DNA from: Deltaproteobacteria bacterium
GTDB lineage: Bacteria > Desulfobacterota > Syntrophia > Syntrophales > UBA2210
Assembly: GCA_016933965.1 (NCBI GenBank)
Contig: JAFGTS010000043.1
Location: 1 to 64,000, forward strand
Length of the DNA: 64,000 bases
Direction: 5' to 3'
Shown here: in pieces, positions 28,087-54,246 of the stretch
Layout of the letters: every line of letters begins with the position of its first letter
Numbering within the stretch: position 1 is the stretch's first letter
Program-made: the position numbers and the translations under genes
Notes under the pieces: generated by a model
What the model saw: only the letters and a program-made list of their open reading frames with translations
Told to the model about the DNA's origin: nothing
Database searches by the model: none

Positions 28087-28094
28087 ATTTTTCA

Positions 28095-28115
28095 CCTCCC
28101 TTTTGCAAAGGGAGG
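28095..28115. repeat. CCTCCCTTT palindrome (copy 2)
   Basis: CCTCCCTTT (28095-28103), loop TGC, AAAGGGAGG (28107-28115). Same stem and loop size as 10087-10107, with flanking bases TTTTTCA in inverted orientation. Confidence 0.75.
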
Positions 28116-28162
28116 CCGGGAGGGATTTTTGTATGTAAAATCCCCCCAACCCCCCCTTTGTC

Positions 28163-28264
28163 AAAGGGGGGCTCTGGGTACGTTACTTTATCAAAGGGGG
28201 GCTTTCGGTTTGGTGCTTTACCAAAGGAGGGGCTTTCAGTACGTTACTTTATTAAAGGGGGGCT
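28163..28264. repeat. 30-bp imperfect tandem repeat, four copies
   Basis: Units start AAAGGGGGGCT or AAAGGAGGGGCT at 28163, 28193, 28223 and 28254, a period of 30-31 bp. An open frame runs through it, but the low-complexity product looks like repeat translation, not a protein. There are no unique spacers, so it is not a CRISPR array. Confidence 0.75.
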
Positions 28265-28267
28265 TTT

Positions 28268-28303
28268 CACTTTGCCACTTTGCCACTTTGTCGCTTTGCC
28301 ACT
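28268..28303. repeat. 8-bp tandem repeat CACTTTGC, 4.5 copies
   Basis: Five consecutive units with two substitutions directly follow the 30-bp repeat array, in the gap upstream of the sigma-54 activator gene. The rest of this gap (28000-28452) holds the other repeats listed and one -24/-12 element. Confidence 0.75.
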
Positions 28304-28380: not shown

Positions 28381-28396
28381 TGGCATGAATGCTGCA
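28381..28396 (+). promoter_or_regulatory. Sigma-54 promoter before the activator gene
   Basis: TGGCATGAATGCTGCA has the GG (-24) and GC (-12) dinucleotides at the right spacing and matches the TGGCACG-N4-TTGCA consensus except two positions. It lies 57 bp before ATG 28453. No GATGC-N6-GCATC dyad is seen nearby. Confidence 0.6.
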
Positions 28397-28452: not shown

Positions 28453-30216
28453 ATGATGCTGAAAGACAGCCCGGAATTCCTGATGAAGATCATTCCCGAT
28501 ACGTTCTTCCGGGCATTGATCGATTCCGCCTATTTCGGAATTCTCGCGGTCGACCGGGAGGGGGGTGTGTTCTACGCCAACCAGGCGGCGAAAAAACTCC
28601 TGGGCTATGAGGATGTTACGGACTTCGCATCAATGCGTATCGCTGACATGGATGCCCAACTCTGGGAGGATTACAGAAAGATCATCGGCACGGGGGTTCC
28701 CCAGTTGAACGTGCCCTATAGTCACCGGGGCAGTAACGTGATCAGTCACCGTACGCCCATTGAAGCGGAAGGTGAGATAATCGGGATCGTCAGCGTGTTC
28801 CAGAGCCTCGAGGAGTATGAGAAGCTTGCCATGGACATATTCAGGGTCAGGGAATATGCCGACGAAATAGAAGCGATCATCGGCTCGTCGTACGACGGCA
28901 TCTACGTGACCGACGGAGACGCCAACACGATCAGGGTCAACGCCGCCTATGAGAAGATCACCGGTATCAAGGCCGCCGAGGTGCTGGGAAGGAACATGCG
29001 GGACCTTGTCAGGGAGGGGTATTATGACGAGAGCGTATCACTGAAGGTCCTCGAAAAGCGGGAGACCATCACCATCCGCCAGACGCTGAAATCGGGCAAG
29101 GAGATACTGGTAACGGGCAATCCCATCTATGACGAGGCGGGCAACATCAAGATGATCGTTACCAACGTGCGGGATATGACGGAGCTGGTCGAGTTGAACA
29201 AACGCCTGGAAGCGTCGCTGGGGTTGACGACGGCCTACAAGGAGCGGCTCCAGGAACTGCAGCGATCGGCCGTCCGGCAGAGCGATCTGATACGGGTGTC
29301 CGAGGCCATGCTCCATGTCTATGATCTGGTTGAGCGGGTATGCATGACGGACGCGACGGTCCTGATATACGGTGAGACCGGCGTAGGTAAGGACCGGGTG
29401 GCCGAGGAGATACACGACAAGTCGAAGCGCTCCGAGAGCGGCATATTTGTCAAGATAAACTGCGGTGCCATTCCCGAAACGCTCCTCGAAAGCGAACTGT
29501 TCGGCTACGACAAGGGGGCTTTTACCGGGGCGAAGCGGGAAGGCAAGGCGGGGCTCTTCGAGGTGGCCGACGGGGGGACGCTGTTCCTCGATGAAGTGGA
29601 ATCGATGCCGCTGGTCCTGCAGTCAAAGCTGCTGCGGGTGCTTCAGAACTTCGAGATCACCCGGGTCGGTGGAACTGTGCCGAAAAAGGTCGACGTCCGC
29701 CTGATCTGTGCCTCGAATCAGGACCTGAAGGAACTGATCGAAAGAAAGGAATTCAGGGCGGACCTTTACTACCGGCTGAACGTGGTCCCCATTTATGTCC
29801 CGCCCCTGCGGGAACGGAGGGACGACATTCCCTACCTGATCAATCTTTTTCTCAAGCAATTCAATGAGAAACACGGGAGGAACATGATGCTCAGTCGTGA
29901 TTCCTTCGACATGCTCTGCCATTATAACTGGCCGGGGAATGTCCGCGAACTGGCAAACGTCATCGAGCGGCTCGTGGTCGTCACCTCGGACAGCATCATT
30001 TATCCCCATCACCTTCCCCTGGAGTTCTGCGAAAAGGTCCGGTATGACACGCTGAGCGGCGACGTAACGCTCAAAGAACACCTGGAAAAGGTTGAAATGG
30101 CGGTCATCAGGAACGCCGTCGAAAAATATGGAAGTGCCAGAAAGGCGGCACCCCATCTCGGCATCGATCCCTCCACGCTCACGCGCAAGCTGAAAAAAAG
30201 CACCACTAACGGTTAA
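28453..30216 (+). CDS. Sigma-54-dependent activator with PAS sensor domains
   Basis: A protein of 587 residues. Two PAS domains fill about residues 15-100 and 130-245. The AAA+ domain follows with Walker A GETGVGKD at residues 307-314 and the sigma-54-contacting GAFTGA at 355-360. A Fis-type helix-turn-helix ([21 protein letters not shown]) ends the protein. There is no receiver domain, so it senses a ligand or redox state directly, not by phosphorylation. It is probably expressed from its own sigma-54 promoter. The next gene block on the same strand is the 4-hydroxybutyrate pathway with a matching promoter, so it is the likely activator. Confidence 0.9.
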
Positions 30217-30364: not shown

Positions 30365-30380
30365 GATGCAATTCTGCATC
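30365..30380. promoter_or_regulatory. Upstream activator-site candidate A1
   Basis: GATGC-AATTCT-GCATC, a perfect 5+5 dyad, 306 bp before the -24/-12 element at 30671. The first of three evenly placed copies in the 573-bp gap between the activator gene and abfD. The rest of that gap shows no gene. Confidence 0.7.
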
Positions 30381-30462
30381 GGGGTTCTCACCTGTCGCGA
30401 TTTGGGTGTTATGTAATTAAATCAGATGGCTGTGAGATGCTCACGCTATGCGGTGCACGCCC

Positions 30463-30478
30463 GTTGCATTCCTGCATC
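30463..30478. promoter_or_regulatory. Upstream activator-site candidate A2
   Basis: GTTGC-ATTCCT-GCATC, nine of ten dyad bases, 98 bp after A1. Confidence 0.68.
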
Positions 30479-30543
30479 AATAGTGTGAAAAAGAAGATAT
30501 TTTCCCTGATTTCAATGACATGTTTTTTTCATCATCCCCTGTT

Positions 30544-30559
30544 GATGCATTGCTGCATT
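30544..30559. promoter_or_regulatory. Upstream activator-site candidate A3
   Basis: GATGC-ATTGCT-GCATT, nine of ten dyad bases, 81 bp after A2 and 127 bp before the -24/-12 element. Confidence 0.68.
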
Positions 30560-30670
30560 ATTCTTTTTTTCACTTTCCTGTGGATCGATGAGGAACGGGT
30601 TGCCCCGTAAGAACGGTAACCCTTTGTATTTTAATCACTATTGTGGAATGAGCCGGCCGGACCGATTCTG

Positions 30671-30686
30671 TGGCATGATAATTGTA
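30671..30686 (+). promoter_or_regulatory. Sigma-54-type promoter before abfD
   Basis: TGGCATGATAATTGTA: the -24 GG is intact and the -12 reads GT instead of GC. Spacing is correct and the element is 119 bp before ATG 30790. It shares TGGCATGA with the elements at 28381 and 50969. Confidence 0.55.
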
Positions 30687-30789: not shown

Positions 30790-32256
30790 ATGAGTAAATT
30801 AATGAATGCCAAAGAATATGAGGAAAGCCTTCGAAAATTGAATTTGAAGGTATACATGTTCGGTAAACGGGTCGAGAGCCCCGTTGATGATCCGATCATC
30901 CGCCCTTCCATGAACGCCGTGGCAATGACCTATGAGCTTGCCCACCGGCCCGAATATGAAGACCTGATGACCGACACGTCTCACCTCACCGGAGAAAAGG
31001 TAAACCGGTTCTGCCACATTCACCAGTCGGTGGGTGACCTGGTAAAAAAGAGCAAAATGGGTCGCCTCCTTGGCATGAAGACCGGTTGCTGCTTTCAGCG
31101 CTGCGTGGGCATGGATGCCTTGAACGCCCTTTCCATCACCACCCACGCGATCGATCAGAAGTACGGCACGGAATACAACAAACGCTTTTTGGAGTACCTG
31201 AAGTACGTACAGGAAAACGACCTCACCTGTGACGGTGCCATGACGGACCCGAAAGGTGACCGGAGCCTGGCGCCCCACGCGCAGCCCGATCCGGACGCCT
31301 TCATGCATGTCGTGGAAGAACGTCCCGACGGAATCGTCGTGAGCGGCGCGAAAGCCCATCAGACGGGCGCCGTCAATTCCCACGAGATCATCATCATGCC
31401 CACCATTACTATGCGGGAGGCCGATAAGGATTACGCCATTTCCTTCGCCCTGCCGAGCGATGCCGAGGGTATCACCTACATTATCGGCCGCCAGTCCTGT
31501 GACACCAGGAAATCGGAAGGGATGACGCTCGACCGCGGCAACATGCACTACGGTGGTCACGAGGCGCTGGTCGTCTTCGACAAGGTCTTCGTTCCCTGGG
31601 ACCGCGTGTTCATGTACAAGGAATATGACTTCTCGACCCAGCTGGTGGAGAATTTCGCCGCCTATCACCGGCAGAGTTACGCGTGCAAGGTCGGTGTCGG
31701 CGATGTCCTGATCGGTGCCACCCAGACAGTCGCAGAGTATAACGGTGCCGATAAGGCTTCCCATGTGAAGGACAAGATCGTCGAGATGAACCACCTCAAC
31801 GAGACGCTTTACTGCGGCTGCATCGCCTGCGCGTCCGAAGGTCACAAGGAGCCGAGCGGCACCTATCTGGTTGACGTGCTTCTCGCCAATATCCACAAAC
31901 ACAACGTCACCCGTTTCCCTTATCAGATAGCGCGGCTTGCGCAGGACATCGCCGGCGGCCTGCTGGTCACATTGCCTTCGGCGGCCGATTTCGCATCGCC
32001 TGAAGTGGGGAAATTGATGGAAAAGTACTACAAGGCGAAAGCCGATGTGCCCACGGAGCACAGAATGAGGATTCTGCGGCTTATCGAGAATCTGACGCTC
32101 GGTACGGCGGCAGTGGGGTACCTGACGGAGTCGATGCATGGTGCCGGTTCTCCCCAGGCGCAGCGGATCATGATTACCCGGATGATCAACCTTGAATTGA
32201 AAAAACAAACGGCGAAGGAACTGTGCGGGATAGAGAAGGGGGATCACCTCAGCTGA
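30790..32256 (+). CDS. abfD: 4-hydroxybutyryl-CoA dehydratase/vinylacetyl-CoA isomerase
   Basis: A protein of 488 residues, the usual family length. The enzyme is an FAD and [4Fe-4S] dehydratase that turns 4-hydroxybutyryl-CoA into crotonyl-CoA. The cluster ligands are recognisable: Cys101 and Cys105 in CCFQRC and His293 and Cys299 in YHRQSYACK. The flavin region (QTGAVNSHEII) is also typical. The His-to-Cys gap is six residues here against seven by the published numbering of the clostridial enzyme (His292, Cys299). GGAGG precedes the ATG. It leads the pathway block abfD, CGGC protein, abfT, dehydrogenase and gabT. Confidence 0.88.
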   Translation: MSKLMNAKEYEESLRKLNLKVYMFGKRVESPVDDPIIRPSMNAVAMTYELAHRPEYEDLMTDTSHLTGEKVNRFCHIHQSVGDLVKKSKMGRLLGMKTGCCFQRCVGMDALNALSITTHAIDQKYGTEYNKRFLEYLKYVQENDLTCDGAMTDPKGDRSLAPHAQPDPDAFMHVVEERPDGIVVSGAKAHQTGAVNSHEIIIMPTITMREADKDYAISFALPSDAEGITYIIGRQSCDTRKSEGMTLDRGNMHYGGHEALVVFDKVFVPWDRVFMYKEYDFSTQLVENFAAYHRQSYACKVGVGDVLIGATQTVAEYNGADKASHVKDKIVEMNHLNETLYCGCIACASEGHKEPSGTYLVDVLLANIHKHNVTRFPYQIARLAQDIAGGLLVTLPSAADFASPEVGKLMEKYYKAKADVPTEHRMRILRLIENLTLGTAAVGYLTESMHGAGSPQAQRIMITRMINLELKKQTAKELCGIEKGDHLS

Positions 32257-32531: not shown

Positions 32532-33827
32532 ATGTGCTGGGAGGAAATATACAAAAGTAAACTGACCACCGCGGAAGAAGCGGTGAAACATATCAAGTCG
32601 GGCGACCGGGTCGTCGTCGGCCACGCCTCGGGGTCACCCGAGGTACTCCTCAAGGCAATGGTGGAAAACAAGGAAGCCTATGAGGACGTTGAGATCGTAC
32701 ACATGGTCGCCATGGGTCCATCTGAGTATTGCCTGCCTGAAAACGCCAAGCATTTCATCCACAACTCACTTTTTGCGGGCGGGACATCCCGCAAGGCCAT
32801 TCATGACGGGCGGGCCGTCTTCACACCGTCCCACTTCAGCCAGATACCGCGCCTGTTCCGGAAGAAGGTGCTCCCCGTCGACGTCACCCTGTGCATGTTG
32901 TCATCTCCCGATGAGCATGGCTATTGTTCGTTCGGTATTTCCGTCGATTATACGAAACCAGCGGCGGAGAGCTCGAAGATCGTGATAGCCGAGGTGACGC
33001 CCCATATGCCGAGGACGCTGGGTGACGCGTTCATCCACGTATCCCGGATCGATCATATCGTTGAATGCGACTCGAAACCGATCGTTCTGCAGCCGCCGAA
33101 GATCGGCGAACTCGATGAAAAGATCGGCGGGTACTGCGCCGAACTGATCGAGGACGGTGCCTGCCTGCAGCTGGGTATCGGTGCCGTTCCCGATTCGATC
33201 CTGAGCTTTTTGAAAAGCAAGAAAGATCTGGGGATTCACACGGAAATGTTTTCCGACGGTGTTGTTGACCTGGTGAAAGAAGGGGTCATCAACTGCTCCC
33301 GAAAGAATTTTCATCCCAACAAGATGGTGGCGACCTTTTTCATGGGTACCGAGAAGCTGTACAACTTCGTACACAATAACCCCATGGTGGAGATGTTTCC
33401 CGTTGATTACACCAACAACCCGGCCAATGTGGCACGCAATGACAACGTGGTCTCCATCAATTCCGCCCTGCAGGTGGACCTGACGGGCCAGGCCTGCTCG
33501 GAGTCGATCGGATACAAGCAGTTCAGCGGGACGGGCGGCCAGGCCGATTTCGTGCGAGGTGCCGCGTGGTCCCATGGCGGGGTCTCCATCCTTGCCTTCC
33601 ACTCGACCGCCGCAAAGGGGACCCTGTCGAGGATCGTCCCCCATCTCGACGAAGGCGCCATCGTGACCACGACGAGGACGGATATCCATTATGCCGTTTC
33701 GGAATACGGCATCGCCGAACTCCGGGGGAAATCGGTTCCCCAGCGCGCGGAAGCACTTATCAGTATAGCCCATCCGGATTTCAGGGCCGATCTGAAGAAG
33801 GAATTCTCACGGATCTATAACAGATAG
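32532..33827 (+). CDS. abfT: 4-hydroxybutyrate CoA-transferase
   Basis: A protein of 431 residues of the acetyl-CoA hydrolase/transferase family. It moves CoA from acetyl-CoA or butyryl-CoA to 4-hydroxybutyrate. The predicted catalytic glutamate, Glu238 in GIHTEMFSDG, sits at the same number as in the characterised clostridial AbfT. CoA-binding loops such as FSGTGGQADFVRGA are conserved. AAGGAGG precedes the ATG. Context, between abfD and a 4-hydroxybutyrate dehydrogenase, favours this substrate over acetate or butyrate. Confidence 0.88.
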   Translation: MCWEEIYKSKLTTAEEAVKHIKSGDRVVVGHASGSPEVLLKAMVENKEAYEDVEIVHMVAMGPSEYCLPENAKHFIHNSLFAGGTSRKAIHDGRAVFTPSHFSQIPRLFRKKVLPVDVTLCMLSSPDEHGYCSFGISVDYTKPAAESSKIVIAEVTPHMPRTLGDAFIHVSRIDHIVECDSKPIVLQPPKIGELDEKIGGYCAELIEDGACLQLGIGAVPDSILSFLKSKKDLGIHTEMFSDGVVDLVKEGVINCSRKNFHPNKMVATFFMGTEKLYNFVHNNPMVEMFPVDYTNNPANVARNDNVVSINSALQVDLTGQACSESIGYKQFSGTGGQADFVRGAAWSHGGVSILAFHSTAAKGTLSRIVPHLDEGAIVTTTRTDIHYAVSEYGIAELRGKSVPQRAEALISIAHPDFRADLKKEFSRIYNR

Positions 33828-33978: not shown

Positions 33979-35130
33979 ATGGTTCATGTCTTTACGACCA
34001 CACCCAGGATCGTAATGGGCCCCGGTGCCATCAAGACCATCGGGGAAGAAGTCAGGAACCGGGGTGTCAGAAAGGTCCTGATCGTGACCGATAAAGGGGT
34101 TGTCGGTGCCGGCCTGACAAAGGCCGTTGAGTCGTCGCTCAAGGCCGCAAAGGTCAGCTACGCGATATTCGACGGCGTTGAACCGGATCCGCGCTATGAG
34201 ATCGTCGCCGACTGCGTTGCCATGGCAAAGAAGGAAAAGGCGAAACTGCTCATCGGTCTGGGCGGCGGAAGTCCCATTGACATCGCCAAGACATCGGCCG
34301 TCATGGTGACGAACAAGGGACCCATCGGCGCGTACTTCGGCGTCAACCTGATCCCGAAACCGGGACTGCCCACCATCATGGTTCCGACGACGGCGGGTAC
34401 GGGCAGCGAAGTGACGCCCATCGCCATTCTTTCGGACGAAGGGGAAAAACTGAAAAAAGGCGTCGTCAGTCCCCACATGTACCCTGCGGCAGGCATTCTT
34501 GATCCGGAACTGACCGTCGGTCTTCCGCCGCATGTCACGGCGGCGACGGGAATGGATGCCCTCATTCATGCCGTCGAGGCCTACACGTCGATCAACGCGA
34601 CGGGCATGACCGACATGTACTGTATCCGGGCGATCAGCCTCATTTATAACAACCTGCGAACGGCATACGCCAAGGGCGATAACATGGCCGCCCGGACGGC
34701 CATGATGGAAGGTGCCCTTCTGGCGGGTATCGGTTTCGCCAATGCGGGCGTCACGGCCGTCCATGCCTTTGCCTACCCGATCGGCGCCGAGTTCCATATC
34801 CCTCACGGGATCGCCAACACCCTGATGCTGCCCCATGTCATCCGTTACAACGTGCTGGGCAATCTTCCGAAATTCGCCGGCCTTGCCGGTCCCTTCGGGA
34901 TCCCCACGGCGGGTCTCGACGACCTGCAGATAGTGGACCGCGTCATCGCGGCGATCGACCGCCTGGCGGACGATATCAGGGTCCCGCGGCATCTCGCCGA
35001 TTACGGGGTGACAGAAAAGGACGTGCCCATGCTGGCGGAAGGCGTGATGAAAGTGACCCGGCTTCTGGCGAACAATCCGAGGACGTTGCTCCTCGAGGAT
35101 GCCAAGGCGATCTACCGGGCGGCCCTGTAA
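33979..35130 (+). CDS. Iron-containing alcohol dehydrogenase, probable 4-hydroxybutyrate dehydrogenase
   Basis: A protein of 383 residues of the type III alcohol dehydrogenase family. NAD(P)-binding is shown by GGGSPIDIAKT and TTAGTGSEVTP. Metal ligands are in GMDALIHAVEAY (Asp and His) and in HAFAYPIGAEFHIPHG (two His). The family includes 4-hydroxybutyrate dehydrogenase, which reduces succinic semialdehyde. Neighbours abfD, abfT and gabT make this the likely substrate, but sequence alone does not exclude another alcohol. GAGGAGG precedes the ATG. Confidence 0.82.
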   Translation: MVHVFTTTPRIVMGPGAIKTIGEEVRNRGVRKVLIVTDKGVVGAGLTKAVESSLKAAKVSYAIFDGVEPDPRYEIVADCVAMAKKEKAKLLIGLGGGSPIDIAKTSAVMVTNKGPIGAYFGVNLIPKPGLPTIMVPTTAGTGSEVTPIAILSDEGEKLKKGVVSPHMYPAAGILDPELTVGLPPHVTAATGMDALIHAVEAYTSINATGMTDMYCIRAISLIYNNLRTAYAKGDNMAARTAMMEGALLAGIGFANAGVTAVHAFAYPIGAEFHIPHGIANTLMLPHVIRYNVLGNLPKFAGLAGPFGIPTAGLDDLQIVDRVIAAIDRLADDIRVPRHLADYGVTEKDVPMLAEGVMKVTRLLANNPRTLLLEDAKAIYRAAL

Positions 35131-35215
35131 GAGAATATCGCCTCAGGGCGGTCTCCGTGTATGGGGCCTCCCTGGGTCTTTATACGGAATTATTGAATCT
35201 CAGGAGGAAGAATTA

Positions 35216-36517
35216 ATGGACAATACAGCTCTTGTGGACAAGCGATCGGCATCGCTCGCGAAGTCATTCGCGGGCGGGAAACCGGCCTTTGCGGCATTCG
35301 GAAAAGGCGCCCTTCTCACCGACGTCGATGGACGTGAGTACATCGATTTCGCCGGCGGCATCGGTGTCATGAACATTGGGCACTCCCATCCCAGAGTGGT
35401 CGCCGCCATTCAGGACCAGGCCGGGAAATTGACCCACTCCTGCTTCATGGTCGTTCCCTATGAACCTGCCGTCAGGCTGGCCGAGCGTCTGTGCGCCCTC
35501 ACTCCCGGCTCATTTCCGAAAAAGGCCTTTTTCGTCAATGCCGGCGCCGAGGCGGTGGAGAACGCCGTCAAGATATCACGGTATTACACAAAAAGGCAGG
35601 GGATCATCGTTTTTGACAATGGTTTTCACGGACGGACCCTGCTCACCATGACCATGACAAGCAAGGCGAAGCCTTACAAATTCGGTTTCGGGCCCTTTGC
35701 GCCGGAGATCTACCATGCGCCCTACGCCTACTGCTACCGGTGCCCCTTCGGCCTGGAGTATCCGAAATGCGGAGTATACTGCGCCGATTTTCTGAAAAAG
35801 GAATTTTTTATTCGGTGTCCCGCGGAAACGACGGCGGCGGTCATCGCTGAACCGGTGCAGGGCGAAGGCGGATTCATCACGCCGCCGCCCGAGTATTTCC
35901 CCAAGGTCGCCGAGATCTGCAAGGAGAACGGCATCCTCTTTGTTTCCGATGAGATACAGGCCGGTATGGCCCGGACGGGTGGAAAACTCTTCGCCATCGA
36001 GCACTGGGGTGTCGAACCCGACATAATGACCATAGCGAAGAGCCTTGCCGCCGGCATGCCGTTGAGCGCCGTCGTCGGCAGGGCGGAGATTATGGATTCG
36101 ATCCATCCCGGCGGCATCGGCGGGACCTACGGCGGCAATCCCGTGGCCTGCGCGGCGGCCAACGCCGTCCTCGACGCCTATGAAGAGGAAAACATGCTCG
36201 AAAAGAGCGAAGCCCTGGGCAAAAAACTGTGGGCGGCCTTCACGGGGATGCAGAAGAAATACGAGATCATCGGGGACGTGCGCGGCAAGGGTCCCATGAT
36301 CGCTCTCGAACTGGTCAAGGACCGCGCGACGAAAGAGACCAATGCCGAGGCTGCGGGCAAGATCGCCGCCTATGCCTTTGAGAAGGGACTGATCCTCCTT
36401 ACCTGTGGTCCCTATGCCAACTGCATCAGGTGCCTGATGCCGCTGGTCATCACCGATGAACATCTCGACCGGGGGTTGGCGATCATCGACGAGGCCTTTG
36501 CCTCCCTCGAGAAGTAG
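35216..36517 (+). CDS. gabT: Class III aminotransferase, probable 4-aminobutyrate aminotransferase
   Basis: A protein of 433 residues; ATG 35216 follows AGGAGG and replaces an upstream in-frame start that overlaps the dehydrogenase gene. It is a fold-type I PLP enzyme: NAGAEAVENAVK, GFHGRTL, the Asp in VSDEIQAGMARTG, and the Schiff-base Lys in TIAKSLAAGMPL. The context supports GABA to succinic semialdehyde with 2-oxoglutarate as acceptor. It closes the pathway block and is followed by a GC-rich hairpin. Confidence 0.86.
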   Translation: MDNTALVDKRSASLAKSFAGGKPAFAAFGKGALLTDVDGREYIDFAGGIGVMNIGHSHPRVVAAIQDQAGKLTHSCFMVVPYEPAVRLAERLCALTPGSFPKKAFFVNAGAEAVENAVKISRYYTKRQGIIVFDNGFHGRTLLTMTMTSKAKPYKFGFGPFAPEIYHAPYAYCYRCPFGLEYPKCGVYCADFLKKEFFIRCPAETTAAVIAEPVQGEGGFITPPPEYFPKVAEICKENGILFVSDEIQAGMARTGGKLFAIEHWGVEPDIMTIAKSLAAGMPLSAVVGRAEIMDSIHPGGIGGTYGGNPVACAAANAVLDAYEEENMLEKSEALGKKLWAAFTGMQKKYEIIGDVRGKGPMIALELVKDRATKETNAEAAGKIAAYAFEKGLILLTCGPYANCIRCLMPLVITDEHLDRGLAIIDEAFASLEK

Positions 36518-36555: not shown

Positions 36556-36803
36556 ACCCGATCGAAAGGGATCTTTGAAACACGATAAGGCTGTTGCCGG
36601 TATTCTTCCTTGCAGAGGATACCTGTTCGCGCAGCAGAGGGATAAACGGACATAAGGGTTCCGGATATGGCCGGCGGTGCATTGGGCCATGACGATGGCT
36701 CGAGGATCGGCGATGTTGATATGCGCAATCCGGTGCATTCGGATAACCAACCTCTTCAGTGGGAAGGGGCAACTTCACTATAGCTATAAGGAAGGAGAGC
36801 GGT

Positions 36804-38060
36804 ATGAAGAAAGCGAGTTGGTGGCGAAAAGGATTTGTCTGGTTTGTAACCCTGACCTTGAGCCTTGCCATGGTCGTATCGGTGGGAACACCGGCGATGG
36901 CAAAGGAAAAGGTCATAAAGATCGGGAACATTCTTCCCCTGTCAGGACCCTCGGCATCGGTTGGAATCCAGGGCAAGTATGCACGGGAGCTTGCAACGGA
37001 GATGATAAACGAAGCCGGCGGGATCAAGTCTCTGGGTGGTCTGAAGCTCGAGAACATCTATGTTGACAGCAAGAGCGACCCCACCGTGGGTGTCACGGCG
37101 GCGGAGAGGCTCATCAATACCAATAAGGTAAATATTCTGTCGGGATGCTGGAACTCGGCCGTCACCTATCCCTCAACGCAGGTGGCCGAACGTTACGGAA
37201 TTCCCTTCATCGTGCCTGTTTCCGTTCGGAACACCATCACGGAGAGAGGGTTCAAATATACCTTCAGGATCGCCGCGAAGGACGCCTGGTGGACCCGTGA
37301 CCAGTTCGGTTTCCTTGAAGATATGAAGAAAAAGACCGGCGAGCAGCTGACGACCATGGCCTTCGTCTACGAGAACGGCGACTGGGGTGTCGGCATGGCC
37401 GAGTCATGGCGCGAACTGGCAAAACAATACGGCTACAAGGTCGTTCTCGACGAACCCTATCCCAGCACGGCCAGCGACCTGACACCGGTCGTCATGAAGA
37501 TCAAGAAGGCAAACCCCGACGTCCTGCTTCTGACCTCGAACGCATCCGACGCCATTCTGCTGACGAACACCATGGCCGAAATGAAAGTGAAAACGAAAGC
37601 CGTTATCGGAACCGGCGGCGGCCACGCGGACCCGATGTTCCGGAAGAACTGCGGCAAGAACGCCGAATACATGTTCGACGTCGTTGAATGGGAAGCCGAC
37701 CTGAACAAGACCGGCATTCCCGAGTTGAACGCGGAGTTCAAGAAACGTCACGGCTATGACCTTGCCGGTGAGAGCGTCGATGCCTTCGTGTCGGTCTTTG
37801 TCATCGCCGACGCCCTGGAGCGCGCCGGTTCGCTGGACCCCAAGAAGATCAGAGAGGCCCTTGCGGCGACAAAACTGTGCTCGGGCCCCGGCATGATCGT
37901 TTCCTATGACTGCGTCCAGTTCGATGAGAACGGGCAGAATATTAATGCCGGTATCGTGATGGTCCAGTACCGCATGATCGACGGGAACCTGGAACGGGTT
38001 TCCATCTGGCCTGAAAGCGCCGCGAGAGCCGGGTATGAAGCCATATTCCCCATGCCCTGA
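36804..38060 (+). CDS. livK: Branched-chain amino acid-type ABC transporter, binding protein
   Basis: A protein of 418 residues; ATG 36804 follows AAGGAGAG and gives a typical signal peptide ending in AMA near residue 33. The mature protein is a type I periplasmic binding fold (IGNILPLSGPSASVGIQGK). Such proteins bind branched-chain amino acids, but also amides, urea or other amino acids. The neighbourhood suggests GABA, glutamate or a related compound, with no residue-level proof. First gene of livKHMGF. Confidence 0.88.
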   Translation: MKKASWWRKGFVWFVTLTLSLAMVVSVGTPAMAKEKVIKIGNILPLSGPSASVGIQGKYARELATEMINEAGGIKSLGGLKLENIYVDSKSDPTVGVTAAERLINTNKVNILSGCWNSAVTYPSTQVAERYGIPFIVPVSVRNTITERGFKYTFRIAAKDAWWTRDQFGFLEDMKKKTGEQLTTMAFVYENGDWGVGMAESWRELAKQYGYKVVLDEPYPSTASDLTPVVMKIKKANPDVLLLTSNASDAILLTNTMAEMKVKTKAVIGTGGGHADPMFRKNCGKNAEYMFDVVEWEADLNKTGIPELNAEFKKRHGYDLAGESVDAFVSVFVIADALERAGSLDPKKIREALAATKLCSGPGMIVSYDCVQFDENGQNINAGIVMVQYRMIDGNLERVSIWPESAARAGYEAIFPMP

Positions 38061-38162
38061 AATGGGACACGCTGCTGCGTAACATTGAAATGAACGTTGC
38101 CGGGTCCGGCCGGACGAGACCCGGACCCGGCAACCGCCATCATGAATCGAAATGAGGAAACT

Positions 38163-39047
38163 ATGGATGCAATTCTTCAAGCAATCGTAAACGGTACGCT
38201 TACCGGCTCGATTTACGGTCTTGCTGCGCTGGGTCTGACCCTGATCTTCGGTGTCATCAAGGTCATCAACTTCGCCCACGGGTCCTGTTTGATGGTCGGT
38301 ATGTACGCCGCCTACTGGGTGGTCCTTCTGACGGGGGTAAATCCTTATGTGGCCTTGATAGTCGTTGTTCCTTTTCTCTTCTTCTTCGGCTATTTCCTGC
38401 AGGATATCGTGATCAAGCCCGTCCTTGAAGCTCAGAGCGATGTCAGGGAACCAACGGAGGTCATTATCGTAACGACCGGTGTCTGGTATATTCTGGACAA
38501 CCTGACCTTGATGCTCTTCGGAGCTGAATACCGGGTCGTTCAAACGTCTATTTCTGGAACATCCTTCGAGCTCGGCGAGCTTATCGTATCAGCGCCGAAA
38601 CTCTACGGATTCATCGCCACGATCATTGTTTCCGTGGCGGTTGTCTGGTTTCTCAACAGCACGAAAATGGGAAAGTCCATCCGTGCGGCCTCTCTTGACC
38701 GCGAGGCGGCGAGCCTCATGGGAATCAACCAGTACCGGGTGTACAACATCGCCTTCGGTATCGGAACAGCGATCATGGGTGTCGTCGGTTGCGTATTGAT
38801 TCCTTTCTATTATGTCTTTCCGACGGTCGGTGTCATCTTCGACGTCAAATGTTTCATCATCGTCGTTCTGGGAGGTCTGGGCAGCATTCCCGGCGCCCTG
38901 GTGGGTGGTGTCATTATCGGTCTGATCGAGTCTATCGGTGCTCAGTTCATGGCATCAACCTGGACCGAGTTGATCGTGTATGTCGTCTTCCTGGCGGTTC
39001 TCTTCATCAGACCCGCGGGGCTGTTCGGATCAAAGCTGGACTGGTAG
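38163..39047 (+). CDS. livH: ABC transporter permease LivH
   Basis: A protein of 294 residues with about eight membrane helices. The start is set at ATG 38163 after GAGGAAACT. The LivH pattern is clear: YGLAALGLTLIFGV near the N-terminus and VVLGGLGSIPGALVGG in the cytoplasmic coupling loop that meets the ATPases. It forms the channel with LivM. Confidence 0.92.
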   Translation: MDAILQAIVNGTLTGSIYGLAALGLTLIFGVIKVINFAHGSCLMVGMYAAYWVVLLTGVNPYVALIVVVPFLFFFGYFLQDIVIKPVLEAQSDVREPTEVIIVTTGVWYILDNLTLMLFGAEYRVVQTSISGTSFELGELIVSAPKLYGFIATIIVSVAVVWFLNSTKMGKSIRAASLDREAASLMGINQYRVYNIAFGIGTAIMGVVGCVLIPFYYVFPTVGVIFDVKCFIIVVLGGLGSIPGALVGGVIIGLIESIGAQFMASTWTELIVYVVFLAVLFIRPAGLFGSKLDW

Positions 39048-39065
39048 GAAAGGAGACAAACAACC

Positions 39066-40079
39066 ATGAAACGAGAAACACTGGACAAGATACTCAAAAT
39101 TGTGCTGGTAGCCGGTGTGTTCACCTTGCCGCTCTGGATGAACAGTCCCACCTATCTCCAGATCCTGATCCTGCTTTTCTGGTATGCCTACCTGACCACG
39201 TCATGGAACCTGGTCGGCGGCTGGGCCGGTGTGTTGCCGCTGGGTCATTCGGCCTACATCGGGATCGGTGCCTACACGTCAACGGTACTGGCCATGCATT
39301 ACGGTTTGAGCCCCTGGATCGGCATGTTCGTCGGGGGTATACTCGCCTCGATCGTAGGAATCATTATCGGTGTTCCCACTCTGAAGCTCAGGGGAGCCTA
39401 CTTCGCGCTTTCGACGATGGCCTTCGGCGAGGGCGTGCGTGTCCTTGTGGAGAATACGAACAAGCTGGGACCCTTTGCGATCAATGGTCCCCGCGGTATC
39501 TGTATTCCACTGCAGAACGGATTCTGGAATTTCCAGTTCATCAGCAAGGTTCCCTATTATTATATAATCCTCATCATGCTTTGCGTGGCCCTCTTTGTGA
39601 CGTGGTACATGTCCCGGGTCAGGATCGGATACTATCTGAACGCGGGCGGTGAAGAGCCCGAAGCGGCGGAAGCGCTTGGTGTGAACGTCGCGAAGTACAA
39701 GGTCATCGCCATGGCCATCAGTTGCTTCATGACGGGGCTCGCGGGGACTTTTTACGCGCAGATGGCGCTCTACTTTTACCCGAAGGCGATCCTGGGACTC
39801 GATCTGTCCTTTGAGATCGCCTTTATCGCCCTCATCGGAGGCCGCGGTACCCTGGCCGGCCCCGTTCTTGGCGCCCTGGTCCTCAGACCGGTGACCGATT
39901 TCTCGCGTATCTACTTCAGTTCCATACTCCCCGGTCTGCACCTGGTCATATACGGACTGGTCCTGATCCTGGTCATGATCTACCAGCCGAGAGGCATCCA
40001 GGAGCCGCTGAGTAAGGCCTATGACTGGTTTCTTGACAATATGACGGGTACTGCTCGAGCAAAGGGGGTGAAGTCATAA
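39066..40079 (+). CDS. livM: ABC transporter permease LivM
   Basis: A protein of 337 residues with eight or nine helices. LivM marks are WNLVGGWAGVLPLGHSAYIG and, near the C-terminus, ALIGGRGTLAGPVLGAL, the EAA-like loop. GAAAGGAGA precedes the ATG. Its stop codon shares its last base with the livG start, so translation is coupled. Confidence 0.92.
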   Translation: MKRETLDKILKIVLVAGVFTLPLWMNSPTYLQILILLFWYAYLTTSWNLVGGWAGVLPLGHSAYIGIGAYTSTVLAMHYGLSPWIGMFVGGILASIVGIIIGVPTLKLRGAYFALSTMAFGEGVRVLVENTNKLGPFAINGPRGICIPLQNGFWNFQFISKVPYYYIILIMLCVALFVTWYMSRVRIGYYLNAGGEEPEAAEALGVNVAKYKVIAMAISCFMTGLAGTFYAQMALYFYPKAILGLDLSFEIAFIALIGGRGTLAGPVLGALVLRPVTDFSRIYFSSILPGLHLVIYGLVLILVMIYQPRGIQEPLSKAYDWFLDNMTGTARAKGVKS

Positions 40080-40816
40080 TGGCAACAATGCTTGAAGTTA
40101 AGAACGTATCAAAACATTTCGGCGGTTTGAAAGCGGTCGATCAGGTCTCCCTTTCAATAAATGAGGGAGAGATCTTCGGTCTGATAGGGCCGAACGGTGC
40201 GGGAAAATCGACGCTTTTTAACTGTGTGGCCGGCTACTATCCTCCCACGTTCGGTGAGATCCTTTTCAGGGGTGAATCCATCACCGGCCTGCGGCCCTGG
40301 GACATCTGCAAGAAGAGGATCGCCAGGACCTTTCAACTGGTGAAGCCTTTCAAGATGAAAAGCGTCCTTTACAATACCATGGTGGGGGCCTATGTGCGTT
40401 CCACCAATCCCGCCGAGGTCAGGGACATGGCACTGGAGATCCTGGAGGAACTGCAGTTGGCCGATAAGAAGGATGTGCTGGCGAAAAATCTTACCATAGC
40501 CGACAGGAAACGTCTTGAACTGGCCCGCGCGATGGCGACGGATCCCGAGATGCTGCTTCTGGATGAATGCATGGCGGGTCTGCGGCCGAACGAGGTGGAT
40601 GAAACGCTGGATATCATTCGCGGTATTCGGGACCGCGGGGTCACCATATTCGTGATCGAGCATATCATGCGGGCGATCATGTCCCTCTCCGACCGGATCA
40701 CGGTTATTCAGTTCGGCGCGAAAATAATGGAAGGCACGCCGGCAGAGGTTGCCGCCGACGAGAGAGTCATTAAAGCATATCTGGGGGAAAGCTATGTCGC
40801 TGCTGGAAATAAATAA
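40079..40816 (+). CDS. livG: ABC transporter ATPase LivG, atypical signature motif
   Basis: A protein of 245 residues. Walker A is GPNGAGKST and Walker B ends LLLDE. Length and order fit LivG. Two motifs depart from the norm. The ABC signature, usually LSYGQQ in LivG, reads LTIADRKRLE here. The residue after the Walker B Glu is Cys instead of Pro (LLLDECMAGL). The partner LivF has an orthodox signature, so one ATP site of the pair may be degenerate, as in many asymmetric ABC transporters. Confidence 0.9.
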   Translation: MATMLEVKNVSKHFGGLKAVDQVSLSINEGEIFGLIGPNGAGKSTLFNCVAGYYPPTFGEILFRGESITGLRPWDICKKRIARTFQLVKPFKMKSVLYNTMVGAYVRSTNPAEVRDMALEILEELQLADKKDVLAKNLTIADRKRLELARAMATDPEMLLLDECMAGLRPNEVDETLDIIRGIRDRGVTIFVIEHIMRAIMSLSDRITVIQFGAKIMEGTPAEVAADERVIKAYLGESYVAAGNK

Positions 40817-41504
40817 AATCACATGCTTTTACGGGGACGTCCAGGTCATCTACGATGTATCGATGCATGTCGATGAAGGTGAGATCATCAGCATGATCGG
40901 CGCGAACGGTGCCGGGAAGTCCACCATTCTGAAATGTATCTCGGGCCTGATGAAGGCAAAAACGGGAACGATCACCTTTGATGGTCAGCAGGTTCAGAAT
41001 CTTCGCCCGGAAAAGATCGTCGACAGAGGCGTGATACATGTTCCCGAGGGAAGACGGCTGTTCCCCCTGATGACGGTGAAGGAGAATCTTGAGGTTGGGG
41101 CCCACAATCCACGGGCCTATCCGCACAGGGAAGAGACCATCAAGGATGTTTACAAGTTATTGCCGCGCCTGCAGGAGCGCGAAAAACAGCTCGCCATCAC
41201 TCTGAGCGGCGGTGAACAGCAGATGGTCGCCATCGGCAGGGGCATGATGGCGATGCCGAAGATCCTGATGCTTGATGAACCCTCCCTGGGGCTTGCCCCG
41301 GTCTTGATCCAGGAAATATTCCAGACGATCAGGAAGATCGCAGAACAGGGTACGACGGTATTGCTTGTCGAACAGGACGTGCAGCATTCTCTCAGCCTGA
41401 GCGATCGGGGGTATGTCCTCGAACACGGGCGGGTCGTGCAGGAAGGTCTTGGTTCCGAGTTGCTGAACAATCCGAACATACGGGAAGCGTATCTCGGTAT
41501 ATAG
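40794..41504 (+). CDS. livF: ABC transporter ATPase LivF
   Basis: A protein of 236 residues; ATG 40794 lies inside the end of livG (23-bp overlap) after GGGGGAAA. Walker A is GANGAGKST, signature TLSGGEQQM, and Walker B MLDEPSLGLAP, all regular. It pairs with LivG at the membrane. Confidence 0.93.
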   Translation: MSLLEINKITCFYGDVQVIYDVSMHVDEGEIISMIGANGAGKSTILKCISGLMKAKTGTITFDGQQVQNLRPEKIVDRGVIHVPEGRRLFPLMTVKENLEVGAHNPRAYPHREETIKDVYKLLPRLQEREKQLAITLSGGEQQMVAIGRGMMAMPKILMLDEPSLGLAPVLIQEIFQTIRKIAEQGTTVLLVEQDVQHSLSLSDRGYVLEHGRVVQEGLGSELLNNPNIREAYLGI

Positions 41505-50669: not shown

Positions 50670-50685
50670 GGTGCGACCATGCATC
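50670..50685. promoter_or_regulatory. Upstream activator-site candidate B1
   Basis: GGTGC-GACCAT-GCATC, nine of ten dyad bases, 299 bp before the -24/-12 element at 50969. First of three copies in the 731-bp gap between gltX and the transporter gene. That gap otherwise holds only the two dyads listed and no credible gene. Confidence 0.6.
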
Positions 50686-50765: not shown

Positions 50766-50781
50766 GATGCAAAAACGCAAT
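50766..50781. promoter_or_regulatory. Upstream activator-site candidate B2
   Basis: GATGC-AAAAAC-GCAAT, eight of ten dyad bases and the weakest copy, 96 bp after B1. A palindrome ATGACCGGTCAT (50780-50791) adjoins it. Confidence 0.5.
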
Positions 50782-50846: not shown

Positions 50847-50862
50847 GATGCAGCGAAGCATC
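50847..50862. promoter_or_regulatory. Upstream activator-site candidate B3
   Basis: GATGC-AGCGAA-GCATC, perfect dyad (extendable by GT/AC), 81 bp after B2 and 122 bp before the -24/-12 element. Confidence 0.65.
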
Positions 50863-50968: not shown

Positions 50969-50984
50969 TGGCATGAATATTGAT
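50969..50984 (+). promoter_or_regulatory. Sigma-54-type promoter before the transporter gene
   Basis: TGGCATGAATATTGAT: the -24 GG is intact and the -12 reads GA. Shares TGGCATGAAT with 28381. It is 155 bp before ATG 51124. Confidence 0.5.
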
Positions 50985-51123: not shown

Positions 51124-52581
51124 ATGAGAAAAGAGAGAGAGTATGGAGGGATTCAACCGGGAATCCACATTGCCGGACCCCTGACACTCAGAATCCCGTT
51201 TGTTCACTACCGCTTTGAGTGGGCCGACTACATCCAGGGTCTCCTGATGTGTACGGTCTGCCTTTCAATAATTCCCGTGCTGACCGGCAAACTGGGTATG
51301 TCCTTCGAGGTGGCGCTCGCCATCGTTATTTTGAACGGGACCCTCTATCTGGCACACGTAACCTTTGGTGATCCCGTTGTACCGGGATGGGTCACACCGG
51401 CGATCCCGCTCTTGATCGCATACTGCGAAACCTTTGCCCCCGGTGTTGAGCGGATGCAGGCCCTGATCGCCTTTGAGATGACCTTCGGTCTTTTCTGCGT
51501 CCTGCTGGGTGTTACGGGGCTGGCGAAAAAGTTCATTTCGCTTATTCCCAACGCCGTGCAGGCCGCGATCCTCCTGGGTGCCGGTTTCGCCGCGATCATG
51601 CTGGTGTTCAAGCCCGGTGAAGGTCTGAAGAGCTTCGATTCCTATCCCTGGACGATCATCATCTGTATCGGTCTTGCCTACTACCTGCTGTTCTCGGGTC
51701 ATTTCAAGAAGATCAGAAACAAGAACAAGGTTCTCTACTATCTGTCCAACCTGGGCATGATGCCCGCCCTGGCCCTTGCGGTCATCGTCGGTCCCCTGGT
51801 CGGCGAAATTCCCTGGCCCACCTATGAAGCGAAGATATTCACCAATCCGGATTTCGGTTCACTGCTCAGAGACTGGACCATGTTGGGGGCCATTCCGGTA
51901 CCGCCTTTCAAGATGTTCATCACGGGCCTTCCCATGGTTATCAGCGCTTACATCGTCGTGTTCGGCGACGTTATTCAGAGCCAGGCCCTTCTGGAAGACG
52001 CCCAGCGGTATCGCCCCGATGAGGACGTAGACTACAACCCGAACCGGTCGCACATCATTTTCGGCGCCCGTAACCTGATCATGAGCGTCTTCGGCCCCGA
52101 TATCTCCATGTGCGGGCCCCTGTGGGCGGCCATGCAGGTCGTCGTCTGCGAGCGTTACAAACACGGCCCGGTGGCAATGGAATCCGTCAACGGCGGCGCC
52201 GGCTCGTTCCGGTGGGGTACCTGGACGGGGTACTTCCTGGCCCCCATTCTTGCGACGGTGAAACCGATACTTGGCGTGGGACTGGCCTCGACAATGCTCA
52301 TCCAGGGGTACGTCAGTGTCAGGATCGGTGTTCTGAAAGCGCGCTCCTTCAACGACCTTGGTATCGCCGGTGTGGCCGGCGCCATTCTGGCGACCCGCGG
52401 CGCCGCCTGGGGTCTTGGTTCCGCCATTCTCCTCTGCCTGCTCATTTACCTGGGAACGACCCTGGATCACGCCTACATGAAGGATGAGCCGATATTCCCC
52501 TTCGACAGCCCCGAGAAGATCAAGGCTGAAGTGGCGAAGCATATTGAAGAAAAGAAACTGCATGACGCAGGGAAAATGTAA
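51124..52581 (+). CDS. Multi-pass membrane transporter, possibly UraA/SulP-fold
   Basis: A protein of 485 residues with about 12-14 hydrophobic segments and a charged C-terminal tail. The order of helices and short Pro/Gly-rich segments (FGDPVVPGWVTPAIPL) recall the 7+7 inverted-repeat fold of NCS2 and SulP carriers, but I see no diagnostic signature, so family and substrate are open. GGAGGAAAG precedes the ATG. Its upstream region copies the activator-site array of abfD, which suggests a substrate connected with the GABA/4-hydroxybutyrate pathway. That is inference. Confidence 0.72.
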   Translation: MRKEREYGGIQPGIHIAGPLTLRIPFVHYRFEWADYIQGLLMCTVCLSIIPVLTGKLGMSFEVALAIVILNGTLYLAHVTFGDPVVPGWVTPAIPLLIAYCETFAPGVERMQALIAFEMTFGLFCVLLGVTGLAKKFISLIPNAVQAAILLGAGFAAIMLVFKPGEGLKSFDSYPWTIIICIGLAYYLLFSGHFKKIRNKNKVLYYLSNLGMMPALALAVIVGPLVGEIPWPTYEAKIFTNPDFGSLLRDWTMLGAIPVPPFKMFITGLPMVISAYIVVFGDVIQSQALLEDAQRYRPDEDVDYNPNRSHIIFGARNLIMSVFGPDISMCGPLWAAMQVVVCERYKHGPVAMESVNGGAGSFRWGTWTGYFLAPILATVKPILGVGLASTMLIQGYVSVRIGVLKARSFNDLGIAGVAGAILATRGAAWGLGSAILLCLLIYLGTTLDHAYMKDEPIFPFDSPEKIKAEVAKHIEEKKLHDAGKM

Positions 52582-52810: not shown

Positions 52811-53518
52811 ATGGCCTACATCGAGGGATATCCCGGAGAAAAGATCGAAACCACTACGGGAAAGCACCTCGGATTCATCGTCATCGTGGTGGTCCTGCTG
52901 GTGGGGTTCCTGGCGTACAGTGCCGATGACTGGCGGGAGGAGATACCCTCGATCATTTTAACCGTCTCCATTGTCGTCGCCGTTATCCTCTTTGTTTCCT
53001 ATAAAATAAATCCCCTGGGATGGCGCAGGATCTTCAGAAAAGAACGGGTGGAGGAATCTCTGAGGATGGACCGCCTGATCGCCGACCGTCTTGCGGAACT
53101 GGACGACTCCCATTTCATCTTTCATGACATCACCTTTGAGCTCTTTCACGTGGAGAACCTGGTCATCTGTCCCGGCGGCATTTTTGTGATAGAGAAGCTG
53201 GAGTCGCCCGATGCGCTTGCCGTGCGGGGGAAAATACTCTTCGCCGGTGATGAGCCTCTTGATACGGTGACGGGAAACCTGTGGCGGGTTTGCCACCTGA
53301 TCAACATCGTCATGGAAAAGGGGTTCAAGGAAGATATCATGCCGCAGCCCCTGCTGGTGAGGCCCGGCGAAGCCTCGGTCAACATCGGTGATTTCGACGG
53401 CATCATCATAACGACCCTTGATGGAATGATTAAGGCCGTCGAGGGCCGGCACAAGAAAGCGATCGAGCAGGAACTCGTCGAGAGATTCGCGTTCTACATG
53501 AAAAAGCGTTACACCTGA
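52811..53518 (+). CDS. Membrane-anchored NERD-domain protein
   Basis: A protein of 235 residues. Two membrane segments (about residues 21-38 and 47-67) precede a soluble domain with the NERD pattern: LDDSHFIFHDITF, then HVENLVICPGGIFVIE, which matches the strand-turn-strand core of nuclease-related domains. The predicted fold is a restriction-endonuclease type, but catalytic residues are not certain. The biological role is unknown. Confidence 0.72.
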   Translation: MAYIEGYPGEKIETTTGKHLGFIVIVVVLLVGFLAYSADDWREEIPSIILTVSIVVAVILFVSYKINPLGWRRIFRKERVEESLRMDRLIADRLAELDDSHFIFHDITFELFHVENLVICPGGIFVIEKLESPDALAVRGKILFAGDEPLDTVTGNLWRVCHLINIVMEKGFKEDIMPQPLLVRPGEASVNIGDFDGIIITTLDGMIKAVEGRHKKAIEQELVERFAFYMKKRYT

Positions 53519-53561: not shown

Positions 53562-53939
53562 GTGCAGAAAATACCCTTTAAGCAGTTTCCACCGTCGGTG
53601 AAGAGGGGGATCATTTTTCTCTTCACCGCCTGGGGAGGCTTCATTCTCGTCCAGTTCGTTATGCTGGGCCAGCTTCTGTTCATTCATGACACGGTGGGGC
53701 TCTTCTGCTGTTTCATGGTTTACGCGCTCAGGGACATGGGGCGTTATTTCTGCGTCGTGGTCAATATTCTCATGATCGCCTTTCTTGTGTATCTCCTGAC
53801 GGCCATGGAGCAGCCCCACCTTCTTTTCCTGCTGCTCGCGGGGTGCAACATCGTCCTCTTCGCCCTTGCCACTTTTTTCATCATGACCAGGGAAACGGCG
53901 GCATTCTTCAAAGATAGGAGCGGTGCGAGTGGGGGGTAG
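53562..53939 (+). CDS. Small integral membrane protein
   Basis: A protein of 125 residues with four predicted helices (GIIFLFTAWGGFILVQFVML and FVVVNILMIAFLVYLL-like segments). No conserved motif is recognised. The starting codon is GTG and follows the NERD gene by 43 bp on the same strand. Confidence 0.6.
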   Translation: MQKIPFKQFPPSVKRGIIFLFTAWGGFILVQFVMLGQLLFIHDTVGLFCCFMVYALRDMGRYFCVVVNILMIAFLVYLLTAMEQPHLLFLLLAGCNIVLFALATFFIMTRETAAFFKDRSGASGG

Positions 53940-54209: not shown

Positions 54210-54219
54210 GTATATGCGA

Positions 54220-54246
54220 GCCACGGGGCGTCCCGTGGCTTTTTTT
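54220..54246 (+). terminator. Attenuator terminator before trpB2
   Basis: GCCACGGG (54220-54227), loop GCGT, CCCGTGGC (54232-54239), then seven T (54240-54246). A regular intrinsic terminator, 55 bp before the trpB2 start, so read-through must be controlled. Confidence 0.85.

Follow-up and report, generated by a model that had tools for sequence, protein, structure and literature searches.

A 64,000-nucleotide stretch of DNA from an uncultured, anaerobic Desulfobacterota lineage (hereafter, the window) carries two arrays of palindromic sites 20 kb apart, one before each of two gene groups: the abfD operon and a transporter unit. This raises the question of whether one regulator controls both groups, and to which metabolism the transporter then belongs. 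A first-pass annotation, made from the sequence alone, had proposed a single sigma-54 activator for both.

Two three-site arrays in one window

We located all six dyads and both -24/-12-like elements of that annotation where it had placed them. The ranks given here refer to the relatives-only matrix described below.

30365..30380, + strand: abfD dyad 1, GATGCAATTCTGCATC, perfect GATGC-N6-GCATC; matrix rank 1 in the window
30463..30478, + strand: abfD dyad 2, GTTGCATTCCTGCATC, one mismatch; matrix rank 3
30544..30559, + strand: abfD dyad 3, GATGCATTGCTGCATT, one mismatch; matrix rank 2
30671..30686, + strand: abfD -24/-12 element, TGGCATGATAATTGTA; position conserved in relatives
50670..50685, + strand: transporter dyad 1, GGTGCGACCATGCATC, one mismatch; matrix rank 6
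50766..50781, + strand: transporter dyad 2, GATGCAAAAACGCAAT, two mismatches; matrix rank 4
50847..50862, + strand: transporter dyad 3, GATGCAGCGAAGCATC, perfect GATGC-N6-GCATC; matrix rank 7
50969..50984, + strand: transporter -24/-12 element, TGGCATGAATATTGAT

Each promoter has three palindromes, starting 122-306 bp upstream of the -24 box, in line with the activator sites of sigma-54 promoters, which lie some 100-250 bp or more upstream. The dyads are spaced 98/81 bp at abfD and 96/81 bp at the transporter, and the third dyad precedes the -24 box by 127 bp (30671) and 122 bp (50969), respectively. The sites described as GATGC-N6-GCATC exist, but only two of the six are perfect and one carries two mismatches. 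Of the GG (-24) and GC (-12) boxes at a fixed distance that mark a sigma-54 promoter, the first (TGGCAT) is good at both promoters, but the -12 halves are poor (TTGTA and TTGAT rather than TTGCA/T, with the GC missing). Degenerate -12 boxes (TTGTA, TTGAT, TTGAA) occur in most promoters of the regulon, and TTGC is kept only in L001, L007, and G018. Between the dyads and the promoter, no IHF consensus site was consistent across the promoters compared. Recent copying of one window array to the other place was considered and rejected, as the similarity of their spacers is small (61% vs 56% when shuffled, z 2.5).

We discarded exact GATGC-N6-GCATC as a working motif, since it is too common at one or two mismatches: with up to two, the window held 54 matches vs 46 +/- 6 in shuffles, and with up to one, there were 167 genome-wide. 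The literal motif being weak evidence, we built a 16-bp matrix trained on the abfD promoters of eight relatives, leaving the window out. Its consensus, RATGCR-N4-YGCATY, is sharper than the original motif; the TGC-N6-GCA core is invariant partly by construction, because the training sites were collected with that core. In the matrix scan, a check that the first-pass annotation had suggested, the six sites took ranks 1, 2, 3, 4, 6, and 7 when every 16-mer in the 64 kb was scored, rank 5 (23764) lying inside a malic-enzyme-like gene. The sites at 50670 and 50847 scored clearly below the abfD sites. Shuffled windows contained on average 0.67 sites of this matrix strength, and none of 300 shuffles contained a spaced triple.

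A genome-wide count had also been suggested earlier. The combination of a -24 box and two upstream dyads with approximately correct spacing occurs twice in the 2.85-Mb genome, at the abfD and transporter promoters, while the reversed control pattern occurs nowhere. No further regulon members emerged in this genome, as the other strict-dyad matches lie in open frames or have no suitably placed -24 box. Across the order, the two-dyad pattern matched 37 times and its reversed control about twelve times; outside abfD and transporter promoters, many of the matches look like coding-region ones. The initial judgement that the paired layouts would not easily arise by chance is thus borne out. The concern that the motif might often fall at random positions holds for the loose consensus, which is common, but not for matrix and geometry combined, which are rare.

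Conservation of the layout and the adjacent activator

An AbfD scan of species genomes returned 80 loci. The same triple dyad precedes abfD in eight of them and, with a weakened third dyad, in a further genome of the family (G018), giving nine loci beyond the window. The transporter array recurs as well: in a different genus (G001), an 86% identical orthologue is preceded by its own triple (99/80/126), and G167 combines an abfD triple (L045) with a second triple (96/80/125) before a CoA-transferase–transporter–NERD-like operon. Comparing upstream regions of relatives, as had been proposed, returned the same geometry before both genes.

We calculated spacing statistics over twelve distinct promoters, counting L003 and L065 once. 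The distance between dyads 1 and 2 was 87-100 bp (SD 3.7), that between dyads 2 and 3 was 78-81 bp (SD 1.0), and that from dyad 3 to the -24 box was 122-127 bp (SD 1.4), corresponding to about 9.1, 7.6, and 11.9 turns of 10.5 bp. Over 78 pairs, similarity of the DNA between the dyads was undetectable (median z 0.8): what is conserved is the layout, not the spacer sequence. As many of the twelve promoters are orthologous, they do not represent twelve independent events.

The gene directly upstream of the abfD array encodes the proposed regulator.

28381..28396, + strand: -24/-12-like element before the activator gene, TGGCATGAATGCTGCA, 72 bp upstream; dyads absent nearby; role uncertain
28453..30216, + strand: sigma-54 activator, proposed regulator, with two PAS domains, AAA+, and Fis-type HTH (Pfam/NCBIfam; co-occurrence with the dyads)

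The product has a GAFTGA loop in its AAA+ domain and a Fis-type HTH, the features by which sigma-54 enhancer-binding proteins are recognized, and the genome encodes rpoN (Sigma54_DBD match, E 4.8e-66). Among the readable genomes, the 11 with an activator orthologue of at least 58% identity all have dyads before abfD, and the 15 that bear abfD but no such orthologue all lack the triple. A Fisher test with 16 genomes in the latter group gave p about 8e-8. One of these, G017, yielded no abfD match at the chosen cut-off; with the correct number of 15, p is still near 1e-7, a value that is optimistic given the relatedness of the genomes. Lowering the identity limit to 50% would bring in one exception, G043, whose activators of 51-52% identity are accompanied by no such dyads before the readable abfD copies. 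In G211, the dyads are present and the activator is absent from the fetched stretch; L010, with an activator and apparently no array, has a 100-N assembly gap directly before abfD. Because orthologue and dyads co-occur across genomes, the adjacent activator is the best candidate for the regulator of these sites.

The element at 28381 may provide separate control of the activator. We rejected autoregulation: this element has no dyads, its G001 counterpart lies at another distance, and others have none. Upstream of the activator gene, 28090-28300 contains a run of short repeats, degenerate versions of TTTGTCAAAGGGGGGCTTTCGGT and CTTTGCCAC. Separately, beside the 65% activator orthologue of the genome containing L005, three similar dyads with a spacing of 18/69 (L179:5300-5506, G157:C30) lie, together with a perfect TGGCAC-N5-TTGCT, upstream of an operon for a 5-oxoprolinase-type protein (LamB/YcsF) and biotin carboxylase, which the activator may control as well.

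The two transcription units

The genes behind the two arrays are as follows.

30790..32256, + strand: abfD, 4-hydroxybutyryl-CoA dehydratase-like (HpaB family; domain match)
32532..33827, + strand: CoA-transferase, butyryl-CoA/4-hydroxybutyrate type (domain/family match)
33979..35130, + strand: iron alcohol dehydrogenase, probable 4-hydroxybutyrate dehydrogenase (domain/family match)
35099..36517, + strand: GABA transaminase (above the TIGR00700 cut-off)
36759..41504, + strand: branched-chain-amino-acid-type ABC importer genes after the abfD genes
51124..52581, + strand: membrane transporter, relative of PurT (7TAK) by homology; an abfD-operon gene in other lineages
52811..53518, + strand: membrane protein with a weak NERD-like domain, transporter companion
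53562..53939, + strand: small protein, companion; homologues follow the NERD-like gene elsewhere
54218..54241, + strand: terminator-like hairpin after the transporter unit

We take the first gene to be abfD from family knowledge and cluster context. In the window, its operon includes the alcohol dehydrogenase and GABA transaminase genes, followed by the ABC importer in place of the transporter. Elsewhere, the transporter belongs to the operon itself. Spirochaetia show the order activator–abfD–CoA-transferase–transporter–NERD-like protein–small protein. Other Desulfobacterota families show activator–[dyads]–abfD–CoA-transferase–transporter–companions (G304 and G449; G212 has the same order, with a 53-55% transporter homologue) or dyads, abfD, CoA-transferase, transporter, and companion (G211). 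The NERD-like membrane protein directly after the transporter is conserved in two phyla. Five further genomes of the order have a 55-58% transporter homologue next to abfD, and some of these clusters sit behind a different activator type. In this group (L088-L092, L191), we observed an activator with the HTH ...VDRATIFRKA... upstream in several loci, together with TTGCA/TGCAA-type dyads and TGGC-type promoters; this would probably be a sister regulator whose site is related. All abfD–transporter clusters examined lacked alcohol dehydrogenase and GABA transaminase genes.

The only solved relative detected for the transporter was 7TAK, "Putative membrane protein PurT" (E 4e-82, residues 5-464, full length), which we assume to be a NAT-fold protein that carries purines. 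A NAT/NCS2-like fold is therefore probable, but homology does not reveal the substrate. Judging from its gene neighborhoods, the transporter is most likely an importer for a substrate of the 4-hydroxybutyryl-CoA route. Our best guess would be 4-hydroxybutyrate rather than GABA, because in clusters devoid of the alcohol dehydrogenase and GABA transaminase the transporter would most simply serve 4-hydroxybutyrate.

The shared triple, together with orthologues inside the abfD operon of other lineages, agrees with the earlier assignment of transporter and abfD to one regulon, and strongly supports the transporter's predicted place in a 4-hydroxybutyrate regulon. The name "GABA/4-hydroxybutyrate regulon" stands as to the regulon but not as to putting GABA first. 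"4-hydroxybutyrate/GABA regulon" is the better wording, since lineages with the transporter in the abfD operon have neither the GABA transaminase nor the 4-hydroxybutyrate dehydrogenase gene there.

Regulon model, alternatives, and known systems

One regulator very probably turns on both the 4-hydroxybutyrate breakdown genes and the transporter, because the same three-site array precedes both, with near-fixed spacing in relatives despite changed intervening DNA. We are confident in reading the arrays as sigma-54 enhancers of one small regulon, in which the 28453-30216 activator serves two transcription units, one of them for a transporter of the 4-hydroxybutyrate route. By analogy with the three-site enhancers of NorR and GcsR, three dimers of this PAS-containing activator would bind the three 16-bp palindromes RATGCR-N4-YGCATY and assemble into an active AAA+ hexamer. 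DNA looping over roughly 125 bp would bring it to the -24/-12 element, where sigma-54 RNA polymerase would be opened. This would drive abfD, the CoA-transferase, the alcohol dehydrogenase, and the GABA transaminase, probably with the ABC importer genes behind them, and, 20 kb away, the transporter, NERD-like protein, and small protein. Sister lineages keep the transporter set within the abfD operon under the same activator type; here it is a unit of its own with a separate array. The sequence itself shows the sites, their geometry and conservation, their co-occurrence with the activator, and the operon context; binding, hexamer formation, activation, inducer, and substrate are inferred from these.

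Two alternatives concern the regulator and its second target. The dyads might be bound by a different, unlinked regulator, either another sigma-54 activator or a repressor, with the adjacent activator acting elsewhere. The genome indeed gave 55 first-look candidates for activator-like matches, and in the genome containing L005 about 26 kb separate the activator gene from abfD, where the array remains. Against this, the activator gene adjoins the array in most loci, orthologue and dyads occur together, and homologues of 44-46% in Syntrophorhabdus and Goldiibacteriota, with a similar recognition helix (the comparison includes YGSTHKAAKNLKISQSTIVRK), neighbor GATGCA-N4-TGCATC or close variants, so we regard an unlinked regulator as quite improbable. 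Still less credible, to the point of being nearly negligible, is a chance resemblance of the transporter array, with the transporter regulated separately. Its sites are the weaker ones, one deviates twice from GATGC-N6-GCATC, and its -12 box is poor; yet all three are within the top seven of a matrix trained on relatives only, the shuffles yielded no triple, and in another genus the orthologue is preceded by this layout with dissimilar spacers.

The remaining alternatives concern the transporter's cargo and the meaning of the spacing. Full-length similarity to PurT would fit a purine permease whose link to abfD is incidental. However, the gene travels with abfD and the CoA-transferase in Spirochaetia and several Desulfobacterota families, five more genomes of the order have its 53-58% homologues beside abfD, and one aligned stretch reads GPDISMCGPLW here vs APWPGLAGPLW in PurT; a purine permease is thus unlikely. 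As for the spacing, the dyads and promoter could form a fixed-length DNA ruler. Selection would then keep dyads 2 and 3 at 80 +/- 1 bp from each other, and the sigma-54 promoter at 125 +/- 1.4 bp, as the sequence in between drifts to saturation. For the activator hexamer of this clade, this would mean a requirement for a defined, widely spaced DNA path, in a layout common to separate transcription units. Usual sigma-54 enhancers tolerate changes in distance, whereas such an enhancer would be distance-strict. We give this proposal about an even chance. A fixed spacing that is a relic of common descent rather than a working requirement is a serious contender, falling somewhat short of even chances: most promoters are orthologous, and more distant activator homologues come with other spacings (G304, about 102/103/113; G449; Syntrophorhabdus), which also argues against a universal spacing rule. 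On the other side, spacer similarity is gone, yet the lengths vary with SDs of only 1.0 and 1.4 bp; between the -24 box and the start codon, by contrast, these twelve promoters measure 102-193 bp (SD 31).

The regulon described here, with one probable activator and two transcription units, gives this lineage a defined regulon for GABA/4-hydroxybutyrate use. In at least two phyla, it links 4-hydroxybutyrate metabolism to a transporter that had no annotation and to the two proteins accompanying it. Its promoters form a natural series that has kept enhancer spacing but not sequence, allowing a direct test of whether sigma-54 enhancers can be distance-strict. In the open-licence literature searched, we found no description of this regulon, its motif, or the transporter link.

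Several known systems resemble it in part. The best NCBIfam match of the activator is PrdR (NF041552), with the AAA+ and HTH regions aligning; we rejected this identity, as 427 bits is far below the curated equivalog cut-off of 795 bits, and PrdR sites are TGT-N10-12-ACA vs TGC-N6-GCA here. In the XanR regulon of Clostridium (abfD-nifU-hyp-ach-golB), predicted control of an abfD operon likewise involves a sigma-54 activator acting at UAS sites (Nie et al. 2019, PMC6615313). That operon holds other genes and belongs to another phylum, the source names no transporter of this kind, and the XanR motif is described only as distinct. NorR at E. coli norVW also uses three enhancer sites, which are needed for assembly of the hexameric activator, but its sensor is a GAF domain rather than PAS, and a 266-bp fragment there is enough to contain the intergenic region and its three sites (PMC2941729), whereas here the stretch from dyad 1 to the -24 box is by itself about 300 bp long. 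In Pseudomonas aeruginosa, GcsR likewise has three palindromes for one activator upstream of a metabolic operon, gcs2; the protein is TyrR-like, its motif (TGTAACG-N4-CGTTCCG) differs from RATGCR-N4-YGCATY, and its three sites fit within a 200-bp probe, closer together than those described here (PMC4894688). Predicted sigma-54 control of abfD and three-site enhancers are thus already known. This is a real, well-conserved new sigma-54 regulon of a known kind, whose unusually strict and wide spacing sets it apart.
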